Below the pieces are notes generated by a model. The model was not told the origin of the DNA. It saw nothing but the letters and a program-made list of their open reading frames with translations, and did no database searches. Both the position numbers and the translations under genes were made by a program. Shown piece by piece: positions 340 to 5,763 of a DNA stretch of 5,859 nt; position 1 is the stretch's first letter; each line of letters begins with the position of its first letter. Source of the stretch: a bacterium. Its GTDB lineage: Bacteria > UBP6 > JAFGXH01. The stretch is taken from NCBI GenBank assembly GCA_027064085.1, contig JAMOQH010000175.1, positions 1 to 5,859 on the forward strand. The letters are read 5' to 3'.

Positions 340-3150
340 ATGGAAAAGATTTTATTTATCACCTTTATAATGACCATTGCATTTCTTTTTACCAATAATC
401 TTTGGTCAACAACTTATTACGTTTCCAATACTGGTAGCGATCATAATCTAGGAACAGAAACTGCCCCTTTCGAACATATTCAATTTGCAATTGATAACCT
501 TCAAACCGGAGGTGAAATAATTGTAGAAGAAGGTACTTATGATCCGACTGTACTTGACTCAAATATTGATCTAGTTGAGGATTTATATATTCACAGTAGA
601 TTCGATGTAAATTCTCCTAACAGCACTTACTACATCGAATATACAATTATCAGTGCTGGGACGATTGATACTGCAATTGATATTTATAGTTGTGATACTA
701 ATGATTTCCAAATTGTAATCGAGGGATTTTCAATAAAAGATGGTCATTATGTAAATACTAATAATCAAGGGCACGGTGTTAAAGCACAAGGATCATCTAT
801 CTCACTTAAATTGAATTATAACTTTATCTCAAATAACACCTCTAGTACTCGTGGAGCAGGCATTAGCTGCATATTAGGTGATTTTGAAATAATCAATAAC
901 AAAATATTCCAAAACTTAACAGAGACTCAAGGTGGTGGAATTAGTATTGACTCTGCAGTAGCAATAATAAGTAACAATGAAATATATTCGAACACAGCTG
1001 TTTATTACGGTGGTGGAATTGGATGTTTTGGATGTGGTAATTCTTATAGAGAATATGATGTAGAGATACTTGAAAACTCAATTCACGATAATACAAGTAA
1101 TAGAGGTGGAGGTATTGGTATTTTACCTGATCACCATAGATACTTGATTTCTGATAATGATATTTACGAAAACGATACAGTGAATATTTGGGATAATGGT
1201 CAAATAGAGTACTATGCAGGTGGTGCTGGCATTAATATAGCAGGTAATACTCACGCAATAAATAATCGAATAGTTAATAATACAAGTGAGTATGCTGGTG
1301 GCGGTGTTGTATGTGGTGAAAATGAGTTCACGAATACAATTTTTGATGAATGTTTAATTTTAGAAAATATTGCTGCTAAAGGTGGTGGTATTTATTATGA
1401 AAGTGGTAAAATTGAGATTTCGAATTGTACAATAATAGATAATGATTCCTCAATATCTGGTGGTGCTATAAATATTGATTGTGAGTTTTCAAACCCTTAT
1501 GACTTGATTCATCCAGTCATTCAGAATTGTATATTATATGGCAATCAAGCAAATAATACTTCGAACCAAATCAATATTACTAATGATTCAAGCATTGTGG
1601 ATGAAATTGAGTTATCCTATACTTGTTTAGACGGTAATATTACAGAAATCACCGGTAGTACATCTGACTTAGTTTCTAGTGATATTTTTGACCTTGATCC
1701 ACGTTTTGTCGATTATGCAAATAATGATTTCACTTTATCAAACAATTCACCTTGCATTGATGTTGGTAATCCAAGTTCAAACGGTATTGATATAGATTTA
1801 GATGAAGATGGAACCCGTAAAGATGTAGGCTGTTATTCAATTGACCAAGATTTGATCACTTATAATAGAACCCTTAGAACAGGTTGGAACTGGCTCTGTT
1901 TCCCACGCCTAAAAAGAGTGGATTATGTTAATAACAATGTTATTTTACCAACATTCGGTACAGGAAAATTTATTGACCCTCTCTGGATAGATACTGTTTC
2001 TGGATTTGCACCATATTCTATAAATGGTAATGATCCTAATCCACCAATTTGGCTTAATAACCATTGGGTGCAAAATTCTTTTGTAATTGAGAGTATTGAA
2101 GGATTTAAACTCAATATGAGCGGAACTGCAACAGAAAGTCAAGTGGGAGCTTTGGATAGCCCATACACAAAAATTCAGTTAACGAACTTAGATACTAGAC
2201 CTTCATATATCGGCTATATCTTAGCTGAACCTGGTTTAATTACCGAAGTAGTTCCTCAAGGTATGCTGCAATATGAGTTCCAAATTCAAGCTCAAAATTG
2301 GTGTGCTACTTACGATCCAACAAGTCTTGGTGGTAACTGCTGGAAATTTGACACAACTTCAGAACCGGTTATTAAATGCGGTCAAATGATTGCACTAAAA
2401 ATGCTGGCTGCAATAAATGGAGAATTTGTTTTCCAATGGCGTGAGCCACAAACAACTCGTGTAGATTATGTTGAAAGACCAATGCCTGAATACTTCAGCT
2501 TTGTAGAACAAGAGGATTACTTACCTGTTTTTCTTGAGTTAGATTGCAACAATCTTCCTCAGGAGATTGGTTTATTCATCAATGGTATATGCAAAGGTGC
2601 TGCTGTTGTTAATCAAAATCAAACTGAAGAAGCTATTTGCCAAATCAACGCTTATGTTATGGAAGAAACGAGTGACAACTTTTTGGAAGAGTTAGATATT
2701 GTCTATTACTACGAATCAAGAAATACAATAATGAACTACAACAAATTTGCTGTGTATAATCAGCAAAATTCTGAATACTACAATCAGAGCCTTATTTTAG
2801 CTGATGTTTTAGATAAAGATCAAATAACTATCTCAATGAGAGGTTGTAGTTATGAAGAGTCTCCTGAAGCAGAATTTGAATTTAGAAGTCATAACTATCC
2901 GAATCCATTCAATCCAATAACTGACATTTATTTTTCTCTACCTACAGCATCTAATGCAATTTTAGATATCTACAATATTAAAGGTCAAAGGGTAAAAACA
3001 CTTGTTAATGGGCAACTAGATGAAGGTGAACATAAAATTACTTGGGATGGTACTGATAGTAATTGTAACCAAGTTAGTAGTGGAATTTACTTCTATCGCT
3101 TACAAAGTGGAAAAAAAGTCATTAATAAGAAGATGATGCTCCTTAAATAA
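340..3150 (+). CDS. Secreted right-handed beta-helix protein with C-terminal T9SS type A sorting domain
   Basis: This 936-residue protein is predicted to be exported and sorted to the cell surface or medium. Residues 1-23 form a signal peptide (charged MEK, hydrophobic ILFITFIMTIAFLF, cleavage likely near LWS). Residues 25-67 carry a DUF1565-like beta-helix entry motif (YYVSNTGSD, GT..APF, GGEIIVEEGTY). Residues about 110-460 are parallel beta-helix coils with a Gly-rich turn every 25-39 residues. The helix closes with SPCIDVGNP (470-478) and DLDEDGTRKDVG. Residues about 505-845 form a separate Cys-containing module starting GWNWLCFPRL (515-524), which I recognise only as a motif style seen in such proteins. 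Residues 849-936 are a Por secretion/FlgD-Ig-like sorting domain with YPNPFNP (853-859), LDIYNIKGQ and SSGIYFYRL, ending KKMMLLK. The start is supported by GGAG seven bases upstream and by the signal peptide. The next gene starts 69 bp downstream on the same strand. No polysaccharide lyase or hydrolase catalytic residues are recognisable, so adhesion or glycan binding is inference. Confidence 0.9.
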   Translation: MEKILFITFIMTIAFLFTNNLWSTTYYVSNTGSDHNLGTETAPFEHIQFAIDNLQTGGEIIVEEGTYDPTVLDSNIDLVEDLYIHSRFDVNSPNSTYYIEYTIISAGTIDTAIDIYSCDTNDFQIVIEGFSIKDGHYVNTNNQGHGVKAQGSSISLKLNYNFISNNTSSTRGAGISCILGDFEIINNKIFQNLTETQGGGISIDSAVAIISNNEIYSNTAVYYGGGIGCFGCGNSYREYDVEILENSIHDNTSNRGGGIGILPDHHRYLISDNDIYENDTVNIWDNGQIEYYAGGAGINIAGNTHAINNRIVNNTSEYAGGGVVCGENEFTNTIFDECLILENIAAKGGGIYYESGKIEISNCTIIDNDSSISGGAINIDCEFSNPYDLIHPVIQNCILYGNQANNTSNQINITNDSSIVDEIELSYTCLDGNITEITGSTSDLVSSDIFDLDPRFVDYANNDFTLSNNSPCIDVGNPSSNGIDIDLDEDGTRKDVGCYSIDQDLITYNRTLRTGWNWLCFPRLKRVDYVNNNVILPTFGTGKFIDPLWIDTVSGFAPYSINGNDPNPPIWLNNHWVQNSFVIESIEGFKLNMSGTATESQVGALDSPYTKIQLTNLDTRPSYIGYILAEPGLITEVVPQGMLQYEFQIQAQNWCATYDPTSLGGNCWKFDTTSEPVIKCGQMIALKMLAAINGEFVFQWREPQTTRVDYVERPMPEYFSFVEQEDYLPVFLELDCNNLPQEIGLFINGICKGAAVVNQNQTEEAICQINAYVMEETSDNFLEELDIVYYYESRNTIMNYNKFAVYNQQNSEYYNQSLILADVLDKDQITISMRGCSYEESPEAEFEFRSHNYPNPFNPITDIYFSLPTASNAILDIYNIKGQRVKTLVNGQLDEGEHKITWDGTDSNCNQVSSGIYFYRLQSGKKVINKKMMLLK
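817..1476 (+). repeat. Tandem beta-helix coils with GGGI/GAGI turns
   Basis: Residues 160-379 of the first large protein contain eight degenerate coils of the form NN-x-I-x-x-N followed by a Gly-rich turn. The turns are GAGI 172-175, GGGI 198-201, GGGI 224-227, GGGI 256-259, GAGI 295-298, GGGV 320-323, GGGI 348-351 and GGAI 374-377. Spacings are 26, 26, 32, 39, 25, 28 and 26 residues, so the basic coil is about 26 residues with insertions in two. The Gly codons are mixed (mostly GGT and GGA), so the DNA repeat is diverged and contains no long homopolymer. Confidence 0.8.
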
Positions 3151-3172: not shown

Positions 3173-3204
3173 ATCGTAGGCGAGAATAAATTCTCGCCTA
3201 CGAT
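3173..3204. repeat. Perfect 15-bp inverted repeat between the two beta-helix genes
   Basis: ATCGTAGGCGAGAAT (3173-3187) and its exact reverse complement (3190-3204) are separated by AA. In RNA this gives a very stable hairpin once the innermost A-T pairs open to form the loop. There is no T-tract on either strand, so it is not a standard intrinsic terminator. It starts 23 bp after the first stop codon and ends about 6 nt before the AAAGGA ribosome binding site of the second gene. It is GC-richer than its surroundings. Plausible roles are a REP-like dispersed palindrome, an mRNA processing or stability element, or a dyad operator; the sequence alone does not decide. Confidence 0.9.
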
Positions 3205-3219
3205 TACAAAGGAAAACGA

Positions 3220-5574
3220 ATGAAACAAAAACTTATACTTTTTTGTATGTTATGTCTATCTGGTGTAGTCTTGTCGATACCCGATTCGCTATTATTATCT
3301 AACACTATCACAGTAAATCAGGATGGATCTGCTGATTACACACAGATAAACATAGCAGTTGCAGAAAGTGTTGATGGTGATACAATAAAAGTATATCCTG
3401 GTACTTATGAAGGCAATATATTGCTGGAAGATCGACATAACCTGCTTATTACCAGTCTCTACCATTGGACTGAAATTGATTCTTTTATGTACAATACAAT
3501 AATCGATGGAGAATTAGAATACACGGGCATTAAATTTGATTTATGTTCCAATATTACGTTACAAGGATTTACAATTCAAAACTGTGTAGGTACAAATCCT
3601 CATTATTGTGGGGCTGGTATCAGAATAATGAGATCTGATCCGATTTATATTTTTGATAATTATATCACAGAAAATCACGCCAGTTGGGGGGGGGGGGTCA
3701 ATATATCAGGCAATTTCCCTGAAAATCAAAATTATGTTGATTTAAGAAATAATGTTATTACAAAAAATTATGCTGCTAACGGTGCCGGTCTAAATGTTAC
3801 AAACTACTCTACATTATTAATGAACGAAGAAAATTGTAATTTAATCTATAACAATTTTGCTAATTTTAGTGCGGATATACATTTGGACGTAGTTTCTTCT
3901 CAAAATATTTTTGTAGAAAAAATCAGCATAAATCCCTCTGATGATAATTTTTCACCATACTATTATTATGATTATAACTCAAATTGCAATTTGTCTGCTA
4001 ATAATTATATGTATGATTTATATGATAATGATGTTTACGTAGATGGCATAAATGGCAATAATAATAATCCAGGATCTAGTGAAGAGCCCTTTAAAACAAT
4101 TACCCACGCATTATCAAGAATACGAAGTAACACTGATAATACAAACAAAGTATATATTAACTCAGGTATATATAATCAAGAAGGCTGTAGTTTGCCAATA
4201 AAAAATAATATTGGTATTATTGGAAATGACAATACGATTATTGATTATAATAATCGTTTCTTCTTTAATATATTAATATCAGGAGGTACTGTCTCGCAAA
4301 TTCAAAATCTTACAATAGAAAATATTTTGTTTTGCAACATTAATACTTCACATATAACATCTATTATGATGTTTTGTAATCCTGAAAACATCATACTAAA
4401 TAATATAAAATTTGAAAATATTCAACTTAATCACAGTTTATTATATTTTTGGCAAGATTTCTTAAATAGTGCTAAGATAGATTTATTTAATGTCCATATT
4501 GATAATTACACAAATGGACTCGCTTTAGGTAGTTTTGGTGCAGATACAGATATTATAAATTGTTCAATAAAAAACTCTGAATATACATATTGGGGAGAAG
4601 GTGAAGCAAAAGCAGTAATTGCTTTTGCAGGATATGTTTATAATCCAAATCACCCTACAATAAATGTTATTAACACTGAAGTCACAAATAATGAAGCAGC
4701 CAATAACTGGCCGGGTGAAACTGGTGCTCCTTGTGGTATTTGCACAGGTCCAAGGACTAATGTAAATATTATAAATAGTACAATAACCAATAATCGTGGC
4801 GTTCCATCCTACTATCATCCAAGTGGTGAATATGGTAGAGCAATTCGATTCTGGGAGCAAGATTCGCACGTAAATATTATAAATTCAATCATATATGGAA
4901 ATGATGAGTTGGATATTGGCTACAAAGACCCAGGATTTTACGATCAAAATAATAATTATAGCTTAAATGTTGTGAATTCTATTGTTGGTGCACATGAGAT
5001 TGATTTACTCGATAATCAAATTAGCTTTGATGATGTCTGGAATGATGACCCTGGATTTGCTGGTGAAGAATCAGAATATCCATTTTCTCTACTTGAAAAT
5101 TCTTATGTGATTGATGCAGGAACAATGAACTATCTGGATTATCTACCAGAAGGGTTTGAATTTCCTGAATTCGATTTAGCAGGAAATCCACGAATAAGCG
5201 GGTATGCAATTGATTTAGGTGCTTATGAGTATCAGGACTCAGTATTCACTCAAGAAACAGAAATATCTAATCCTACCAAAGTGACAAAAATCAATAGTTA
5301 TCCAAATCCCGTAAGACTGAGTAAGCGAAGTGGAGTAACAACAAAAATTAGATTGAATCTAGTTGATGAAGGAAATTATAAATTGGATATTTACAACATA
5401 AAAGGTCAGAAAGTACGCTCAATTCTAGACGCATTTTTAGCAAGAGGCAAGCACTCTTTCTCTTGGAATGGGAAAGATATTAACAATAGAAGCTTATCAA
5501 GTGGAACTTACTTGATTAAATGTGAACTTGATGGAGAATTAGTAACAACCAGTAAGATGACAATAGTAAAATAG
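3220..5574 (+). CDS. Secreted beta-helix protein with two entry modules, sorting domain and a poly-G tract
   Basis: This 784-residue exported protein has a signal peptide at residues 1-19 (MKQK then ILFCMLCLSGVVLS). A first beta-helix entry lies at 29-63 (TITVNQDGSADYTQINIAV, GDTIKVYPGTY), with coils whose turns are GAGI 131-134, GGGV 157-160 and GAGL 188-191. A second, independent entry motif begins at 271 (DVYVDG...NNNPGSSEEPFKTI, 271-294) and is followed by more coils, such as VNIINSTITNN (515-525) and VNIINSIIYGN (551-561). Closing motifs are YVIDAGT (629-635) and GNPRISGYAIDLGAYEY (655-671). Residues about 692-784 form a sorting domain (YPNP 694-697, LDIYNIKGQKV, SSGTYLIK) resembling that of the preceding gene but without the full YPNPFNP. 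The start has AAAGGA (3208-3213) six bases upstream. It probably shares a transcript with the first gene. Codons 156-160 contain a 12-G homopolymer, implying possible phase variation. No catalytic motif is recognised; a surface adhesin-like or glycan-binding role is inference. Confidence 0.9.
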   Translation: MKQKLILFCMLCLSGVVLSIPDSLLLSNTITVNQDGSADYTQINIAVAESVDGDTIKVYPGTYEGNILLEDRHNLLITSLYHWTEIDSFMYNTIIDGELEYTGIKFDLCSNITLQGFTIQNCVGTNPHYCGAGIRIMRSDPIYIFDNYITENHASWGGGVNISGNFPENQNYVDLRNNVITKNYAANGAGLNVTNYSTLLMNEENCNLIYNNFANFSADIHLDVVSSQNIFVEKISINPSDDNFSPYYYYDYNSNCNLSANNYMYDLYDNDVYVDGINGNNNNPGSSEEPFKTITHALSRIRSNTDNTNKVYINSGIYNQEGCSLPIKNNIGIIGNDNTIIDYNNRFFFNILISGGTVSQIQNLTIENILFCNINTSHITSIMMFCNPENIILNNIKFENIQLNHSLLYFWQDFLNSAKIDLFNVHIDNYTNGLALGSFGADTDIINCSIKNSEYTYWGEGEAKAVIAFAGYVYNPNHPTINVINTEVTNNEAANNWPGETGAPCGICTGPRTNVNIINSTITNNRGVPSYYHPSGEYGRAIRFWEQDSHVNIINSIIYGNDELDIGYKDPGFYDQNNNYSLNVVNSIVGAHEIDLLDNQISFDDVWNDDPGFAGEESEYPFSLLENSYVIDAGTMNYLDYLPEGFEFPEFDLAGNPRISGYAIDLGAYEYQDSVFTQETEISNPTKVTKINSYPNPVRLSKRSGVTTKIRLNLVDEGNYKLDIYNIKGQKVRSILDAFLARGKHSFSWNGKDINNRSLSSGTYLIKCELDGELVTTSKMTIVK
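3686..3697 (+). repeat. Poly-G tract (12 G) inside a coding region
   Basis: Twelve consecutive G residues encode the end of Trp156, Gly157-159 and the first base of Val160 in the second beta-helix protein, at a conserved GGG turn. With 13 G the reading frame reaches TGA at 3720-3722, giving a 167-residue product. With 11 G it reaches TAA at 3743-3745, giving a 174-residue product. Either change removes the second helix module and the sorting domain. Long G tracts of this kind are established slipped-strand phase-variation sites in other bacteria such as Campylobacter and Neisseria. A homopolymer length error in the assembly remains possible. Confidence 0.9.
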
Positions 5575-5603: not shown

Positions 5604-5624
5604 CTTGAAGATTGATGCGACTAA
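5604..5624 (-). repeat. Right arm of a window-spanning inverted repeat
   Basis: This is the partner of the arm at 9-30. Positions 5613-5624 (TGATGCGACTAA) are the exact reverse complement of 9-20, and CTTGAA (5604-5609) matches TTCAAG (25-30). The arm runs into the outer arm ACTAAC (5620-5625) of the attC-like element, so the shared sequence crosses what would be that element's boundary. Confidence 0.4.
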
Positions 5625-5763
5625 CAAACGTGTCAGCGGGTAGGCTGGGTGGTTTATTTGGGCTGAATCGTACCTATTCAGGTTTGGGCGGTTTGTTCGG
5701 TCGTGATCGTTCCGATCCCGCTGCACACGCCAACATTATGCAGCTTCTATAGGCGGAGTTAGT
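5620..5763 (+). other. attC-like folded element (possible integron recombination site)
   Basis: The outer arms ACTAAC (5620-5625) and GTTAGT (5758-5763) are exact reverse complements. They resemble, without fully matching, the attC boxes RYYYAAC and GTTRRRY. Inside, CGTGTCAGCGGG (5629-5640) pairs over 12 bp with 5717-5729, interrupted only by the bulged C5724; extrahelical bases are a hallmark of folded attC sites. CGCC (5728-5731) could alternatively pair with GGCG (5752-5755). The element is about 144 bp, within the size range of long attC sites. By hand count it is about half G+C, against an AT-rich background. It begins 45 bp after the second beta-helix gene's stop codon, where a cassette attC would lie. 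Alternatives are a REP- or MITE-like palindromic repeat. No integrase gene is in the window. Confidence 0.4.

Follow-up and report, generated by a model that had tools for sequence, protein, structure and literature searches.

A gene for a predicted secreted beta-helix protein contains a run of 12 consecutive G residues, and the question raised by this locus is whether the run serves as a switch or is a by-product of a glycine-rich coding sequence. The window, by which we mean the whole 5,859-nucleotide stretch that was analyzed, contains two tandem + strand genes, at 340-3150 (encoding 936 aa) and at 3220-5574 (encoding 784 aa), and a T9SS-type sorting tail ends both of them. The features discussed below are as follows.

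340..3150, + strand: upstream gene, predicted 936-aa secreted beta-helix protein with a T9SS type A sorting tail (TIGR04183, 37.5 bits, cut-off 23)
3173..3204, no strand assigned: intergenic inverted repeat, perhaps a terminator or a processing hairpin (self-match, sequence)
3220..5574, + strand: tract gene, predicted 784-aa two-module beta-helix protein with a C-terminal sorting domain (domain matches, family alignment)
3220..3276, + strand: N terminus resembling a signal peptide, MKQKLILFCMLCLSGVVLS (read from the translation, without a predictor score)
3686..3697, + strand: G12 homopolymer located in a first-module turn of the beta-helix, candidate ON/OFF switch by slipped-strand mispairing, in the ON state in the assembly (frame test, codon comparison, shuffles, tracts in relatives)
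4048..4233, + strand: start of the second beta-helix module, DUF1565 match, residues 277-338, absent in both off frames (domain match)
5083..5235, + strand: Choice-of-anchor Q domain, residues 622-672, absent in both off frames (domain match)
5299..5565, + strand: C-terminal T9SS-type sorting domain / FlgD-Ig-like fold, residues 694-782, absent in both off frames (domain matches)
5615..5740, + strand: attC-like imperfect hairpin, a repeat common to other Cloacimonadota genomes (repeat and end-pairing comparison)

The TIGR04183 match that ends the tract gene is weaker than that of its neighbor (23.9 bits, with the same cut-off of 23), and its PF18962 score falls just under the cut-off for that family. 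The C-terminal TIGR04183/PF18962 match and the signal-peptide-like start are the features that this protein shares with T9SS type A cargo, and from these we infer that its product would be located at the cell surface. The beta-helix assignment is a prediction based on family matches and on the repeated GGG turns, because the structure model was poor; a single-sequence structure prediction, with a mean pLDDT of 38.5, was discarded. The inverted repeat between the genes is strong, and short self-complementary intergenic stretches were also seen on another contig of the same assembly (C142).

The 12-G homopolymer reported at 3686-3697 by the first-pass annotation is present and is the sole G run of five or more across the whole window, in which the longest homopolymers of other bases are A7 and T8. 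None of 200 dinucleotide shuffles of the window sequence reproduced a 12-G run. The tract is read in frame within the 3220-5574 ORF as TGG GGG GGG GGG GTC, or W-G-G-G-V, and the assembled length of 12 corresponds to the open (ON) frame. When the frame was computed, the addition of one G yielded a product of 167 aa and the loss of one G a product of 174 aa, compared with 784 aa at full length; these are the lengths given earlier. As had also been claimed, a change of one G would remove the second module along with the sorting domain; their coordinates lie past both stops. The tract, its frame and the consequence of a one-base change are thus observed directly, and they present two hallmarks of a contingency locus, a homopolymer far beyond chance in or near a gene and a one-unit change that switches between full-length and truncated products.

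Interpretation of the tract depends on the origin of the contig. Judged by its composition and its similarities, the window contig is Cloacimonadota-like and misbinned in its MAG (G000; 3.65 Mb, 195 contigs). The T9SS tails of this MAG are almost confined to eight contigs of 3-8 kb. The contigs with these tails have a GC content of 31-34%, in contrast to 24-29% for the long contigs, and they also group separately by tetranucleotide profile. Among 20 relatives of the MAG, 18 had no T9SS tail at E 1e-3 and a single one had a tail scoring above cut-off. On the other side, one Cloacimonadota MAG contains 127 matches to the tract protein, the best of which is full-length (7.7e-64), and a 126-bp repeat at the 3' end of the window recurs in many genomes of this phylum, at about 80-96% identity. 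No close orthologue of the whole locus was found in Cloacimonadota, where DNA matches were limited to the 3' repeat and the sequence encoding the tail, and a search of a phage collection with the window gave no match. An SprA model, used to look for T9SS machinery, had no match in the MAG bin, which is not the true host of the contig, nor in the controls. The misbinned set comprises the window (G000:C175) and the sister contigs C5, C29, C36, C48, C142, C186 and C190.

A search for further G tracts across the genome had been suggested as a check. It was run on the MAG and tracts were found, but because the contig is misbinned these do not bear on the window tract and the check was uninformative. 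They were dropped as support, given that the composition of the long contigs is different and that the MAG's phylum lacks T9SS tails. Several are worth recording as observations on the MAG's own lineage. At L013 (7277-7286; G000:C179, - strand), a G10 lies right after the signal peptide of an EGF-like secreted protein and sets a 46-aa frame apart from an ORF of >1,300 aa, making it an independent candidate for a poly-G switch, OFF as assembled. At L012 (1501-1509; G000:C188:55197), a G9 occupies the ribosome-binding position just ahead of an ATG. Finally, at 1501-1509 of L002, L004 and L011 the exact DNA AGGGGGGGGGCTGA, encoding R-G-G-A-(D/E), is common to three host genes, one of which resembles MlaE; such a sequence is unusual where the genomic GC content is about 26%.

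For this Cloacimonadota-like contig, the sister contigs and the genomes of that phylum provide the appropriate comparison. In an alignment, the tract column falls on a GGG turn that is conserved in four paralogues on the sister contigs, as the first-pass annotation had proposed. It had also proposed that the equivalent turns in the neighboring gene use mixed codons and lack a homopolymer, and this holds: the GGG turns of the upstream gene (340..3150) use mixed glycine codons. Among T9SS-tail proteins encoded on the sister contigs, a turn made of GGG codons throughout occurs in one of 33 GGG tripeptides, the window's own, and the remaining 32 are encoded by mixed GGT/GGA/GGC codons. The G runs of four other genes of the family on sister contigs do not exceed 6, which counts against the switch. 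Homologues of the family are present in 109 of 124 Cloacimonadota genomes. In 92 family genes from other genomes, runs of five G (74), six G (9) and seven G (1) were recorded, and beyond these runs of 8, 8, 10 and 12, the last of which belongs to a G076 gene already found by the tract search and is therefore not an independent draw. All four of these longer runs are located at first-module GGG turns, at residues of about 148-195.

The 124 genomes were also scanned for runs of at least 12 G, and 42 loci around such runs, together with some others, were inspected. Runs of this length were found in 37 of the genomes; most of those in the inspected loci are intergenic or ambiguous, and the clear intragenic ones occur mainly in the family of the window gene. 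The most informative case is G076, in which three paralogues with about 78-81% DNA identity have G runs of 12, 13 and 12 at a single turn that is homologous among them. In two of these the tract (12 G and 13 G) is in frame, with 148+662 and 139+659 aa around it, and in the third a 12-G tract is out of frame, with 160 aa before it and 659 aa including the T9SS tail after it. A second secreted gene of G076 is also split by a G12, in two copies. A family member in G035 has a G12 at a neighboring turn, again out of frame (open frames of 186 and 626 aa, with a T9SS tail), and three further genomes have runs of 10, 8 and 8 at first-module GGG turns. In G092, the contig ends just beyond a G14 in an HWGGGG turn of a different beta-helix protein. 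The comparison of tract lengths among related genomes that had been suggested earlier thus turned up similar G runs in Cloacimonadota homologues, and the finding of G12-G13 in both ON and OFF frames, at homologous or neighboring turns, supports the ON/OFF reading of the locus. The family, the recurrence of the tract and the relatives in both states are direct observations; the ON and OFF lengths (G076 ON12, ON13 and OFF12; G035 OFF12) belong to paralogues and homologues rather than to alleles, and the G076 paralogues are related, so that they are not fully independent evidence. As to further tracts in one genome, a comparison that covered the sister T9SS contigs and the relative G076 showed no G run longer than 6 in the former and several long tracts in the latter. 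Two further patterns were noted in passing. G or C runs of 12-14 lie near the 5' ends of T9SS-tail ORFs in other Cloacimonadota (L151, L167, L168) and are possible promoter or start-site switches, and the second T9SS gene of L172 (8068-10476, - strand) has a second tract, a C12 in a PPP stretch that is C8 in a paralogue, so that this one gene has two homopolymers.

The G076 trio also permits an estimate of selection. Pairwise dN/dS for the module beyond the tract is 0.14-0.17, and on the individual branches it is 0.20 for the OFF copy vs 0.13-0.14 for the ON copies. The downstream module of the OFF copy, which has no stop codon across 658 codons, is under purifying selection. It follows that this copy is not an old pseudogene and that it was turned OFF either recently or reversibly, which further backs the contingency reading. 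In addition, the pairwise dS of the paralogues is about 0.9-1.0, and yet none of the three has lost the run; the probability that three synonymous G positions would survive neutrally in every copy is roughly 0.02, a rough estimate from a per-branch dS of 0.5 that ignores gene conversion.

As a whole, these results make it likely that the G12 tract is a contingency locus that switches a T9SS-type surface protein by slipped-strand mispairing. Replication slippage would add or drop a G within the run. A length of 12, or one differing from it by multiples of three, would give the full 784-aa protein, secreted and sorted by way of its C-terminal tail, and whole-codon changes would alter the turn alone. 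At any other length, translation would continue for no more than about 30 residues, and the resulting fragment would lack both the second module and the sorting tail. The surface or secreted protein would then be ON or OFF at random among cells. Variation of the tract length within a population, and a benefit from switching, are what we infer from these observations.

Three other explanations were weighed. The run may be a neutral by-product of the G-rich GGG turns, with codon drift and slippage building up a long run that has no adaptive role and with the OFF copies as young pseudogenes. A glycine-rich turn is raw material in which a G run forms more easily by chance, and since GGG makes up 9.5% of the glycine codons in the family, about 0.26 all-GGG triples are expected per 300 turns. 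Poly-G is also common in Cloacimonadota and mostly intergenic, and T9SS genes show no significant general enrichment of runs of at least 12 G: 10 of 41 such tracts in the phylum lie in T9SS genes, against 8.9 expected from local gene coverage (simulated P 0.38). Because T9SS genes are not over-represented, part of the pattern possibly reflects this general abundance, to which mutational bias may contribute. Neutrality is nevertheless unlikely to be the explanation when three paralogues have retained the tract at a dS of about 1, selection persists beyond the tract in the OFF copy, and six genomes or more, counting that of the window, have independent runs of 8-13 at turns of the first module.

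An error of sequencing or assembly, with a true run that is shorter or broken, would be in keeping with a short misbinned contig and with the poly-G pile-ups at contig ends in some genomes (G127, G032:C168). It is quite improbable for a run that is internal, with coding sequence on both flanks, at which a length of 12 preserves both the GGG turn and the frame leading to an intact tail, and of which relatives assembled independently have internal counterparts. Homopolymers can also be used for programmed slippage in bacteria. Such use, discussed in PMC3711429, raises the possibility that slippage by RNA polymerase or the ribosome yields both a full-length and a short protein from a single template, in place of heritable switching. 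The paralogues differ in run length and in frame, which speaks against such a use of the tract, and we give this explanation the least credence of all.

How does a slipped-strand switch in this protein compare with known systems? The pmp10 tract of Chlamydia pneumoniae is a poly-G in a GGA turn, and the variable-expression loci of Pmp10 and its relatives encode what is architecturally nearest to the window protein, as surface proteins of a large paralogous family with a beta-helix and glycine turns. For the Pmp passenger, a parallel beta-helix is predicted in which a Gly-Gly turn motif, GGA(I,L,V), recurs (PMC2997323), and homopolymer-mediated phase variation of Pmps has been hypothesized (PMC4514472). 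The likeness is one of architecture, with differences: Pmps are autotransporters with a beta-barrel, whereas the window protein has a T9SS-type sorting domain and comes from another phylum. Its C terminus matches FlgD_ig/Por_Secre_tail and no autotransporter family appeared among the domain matches, so that identity with a Pmp is excluded by the T9SS-like C terminus. In the phasomes of Campylobacter and Helicobacter, long poly-G/C runs inside reading frames switch surface functions ON and OFF (PMC6321876, PMC2823697). The mechanism is alike, although proteins and lineages differ and the window tract replaces a structural glycine turn. Among the open-access papers searched, we found none that links T9SS cargo with homopolymer phase variation and none that links Cloacimonadota with phase variation.

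The ends of the window suggest a further aspect of the locus. The left end of the 3' hairpin, GATGCGACTAAC / GATGCGACTAA (5615-5625), is complementary to the start of the window, TTAGTCGCATC (8-18), and the same complementarity between start and 3' hairpin, in other letters, is found on contigs C29, C190 and C142. Pairing of the outer arm of attC with the 5' end of the cassette is how integron cassettes are built, and the window has such an attC-like site at its 3' end, pairing with its own 5' end, in a repeat that is found across Cloacimonadota genomes. An integron integrase scoring above the TIGR02249 cut-off is present in 7 of 124 Cloacimonadota genomes, a count that applies to the lineage at large. 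Because of the cassette-like end pairing and the integrases in Cloacimonadota, the two-gene T9SS beta-helix units are probably mobile cassettes. The anatomy of 8-18 and 5615-5740, with the attC-like outer arm pairing with the unit's own 5' end, was also noted on sister contigs L073, L076 and L078.

Homopolymer phase variation is best known in host-adapted pathogens. If it is recurrent in T9SS-type surface proteins of an uncultured and mostly environmental phylum, other pressures for switching are suggested, for example phage or grazing. The locus also suggests a design rule, in which the switch is placed in a glycine turn of the beta-helix, where whole-codon changes should be tolerated, and metagenomic reads offer a direct test of the switch. 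Rather tentatively, the surface of Cloacimonadota might be diversified by T9SS beta-helix genes that are carried on mobile, integron-type cassettes and contain poly-G switches in their glycine turns, a union of two mechanisms that are each already known. Were this combined reading true, the genes would move from genome to genome as well as being turned on and off.
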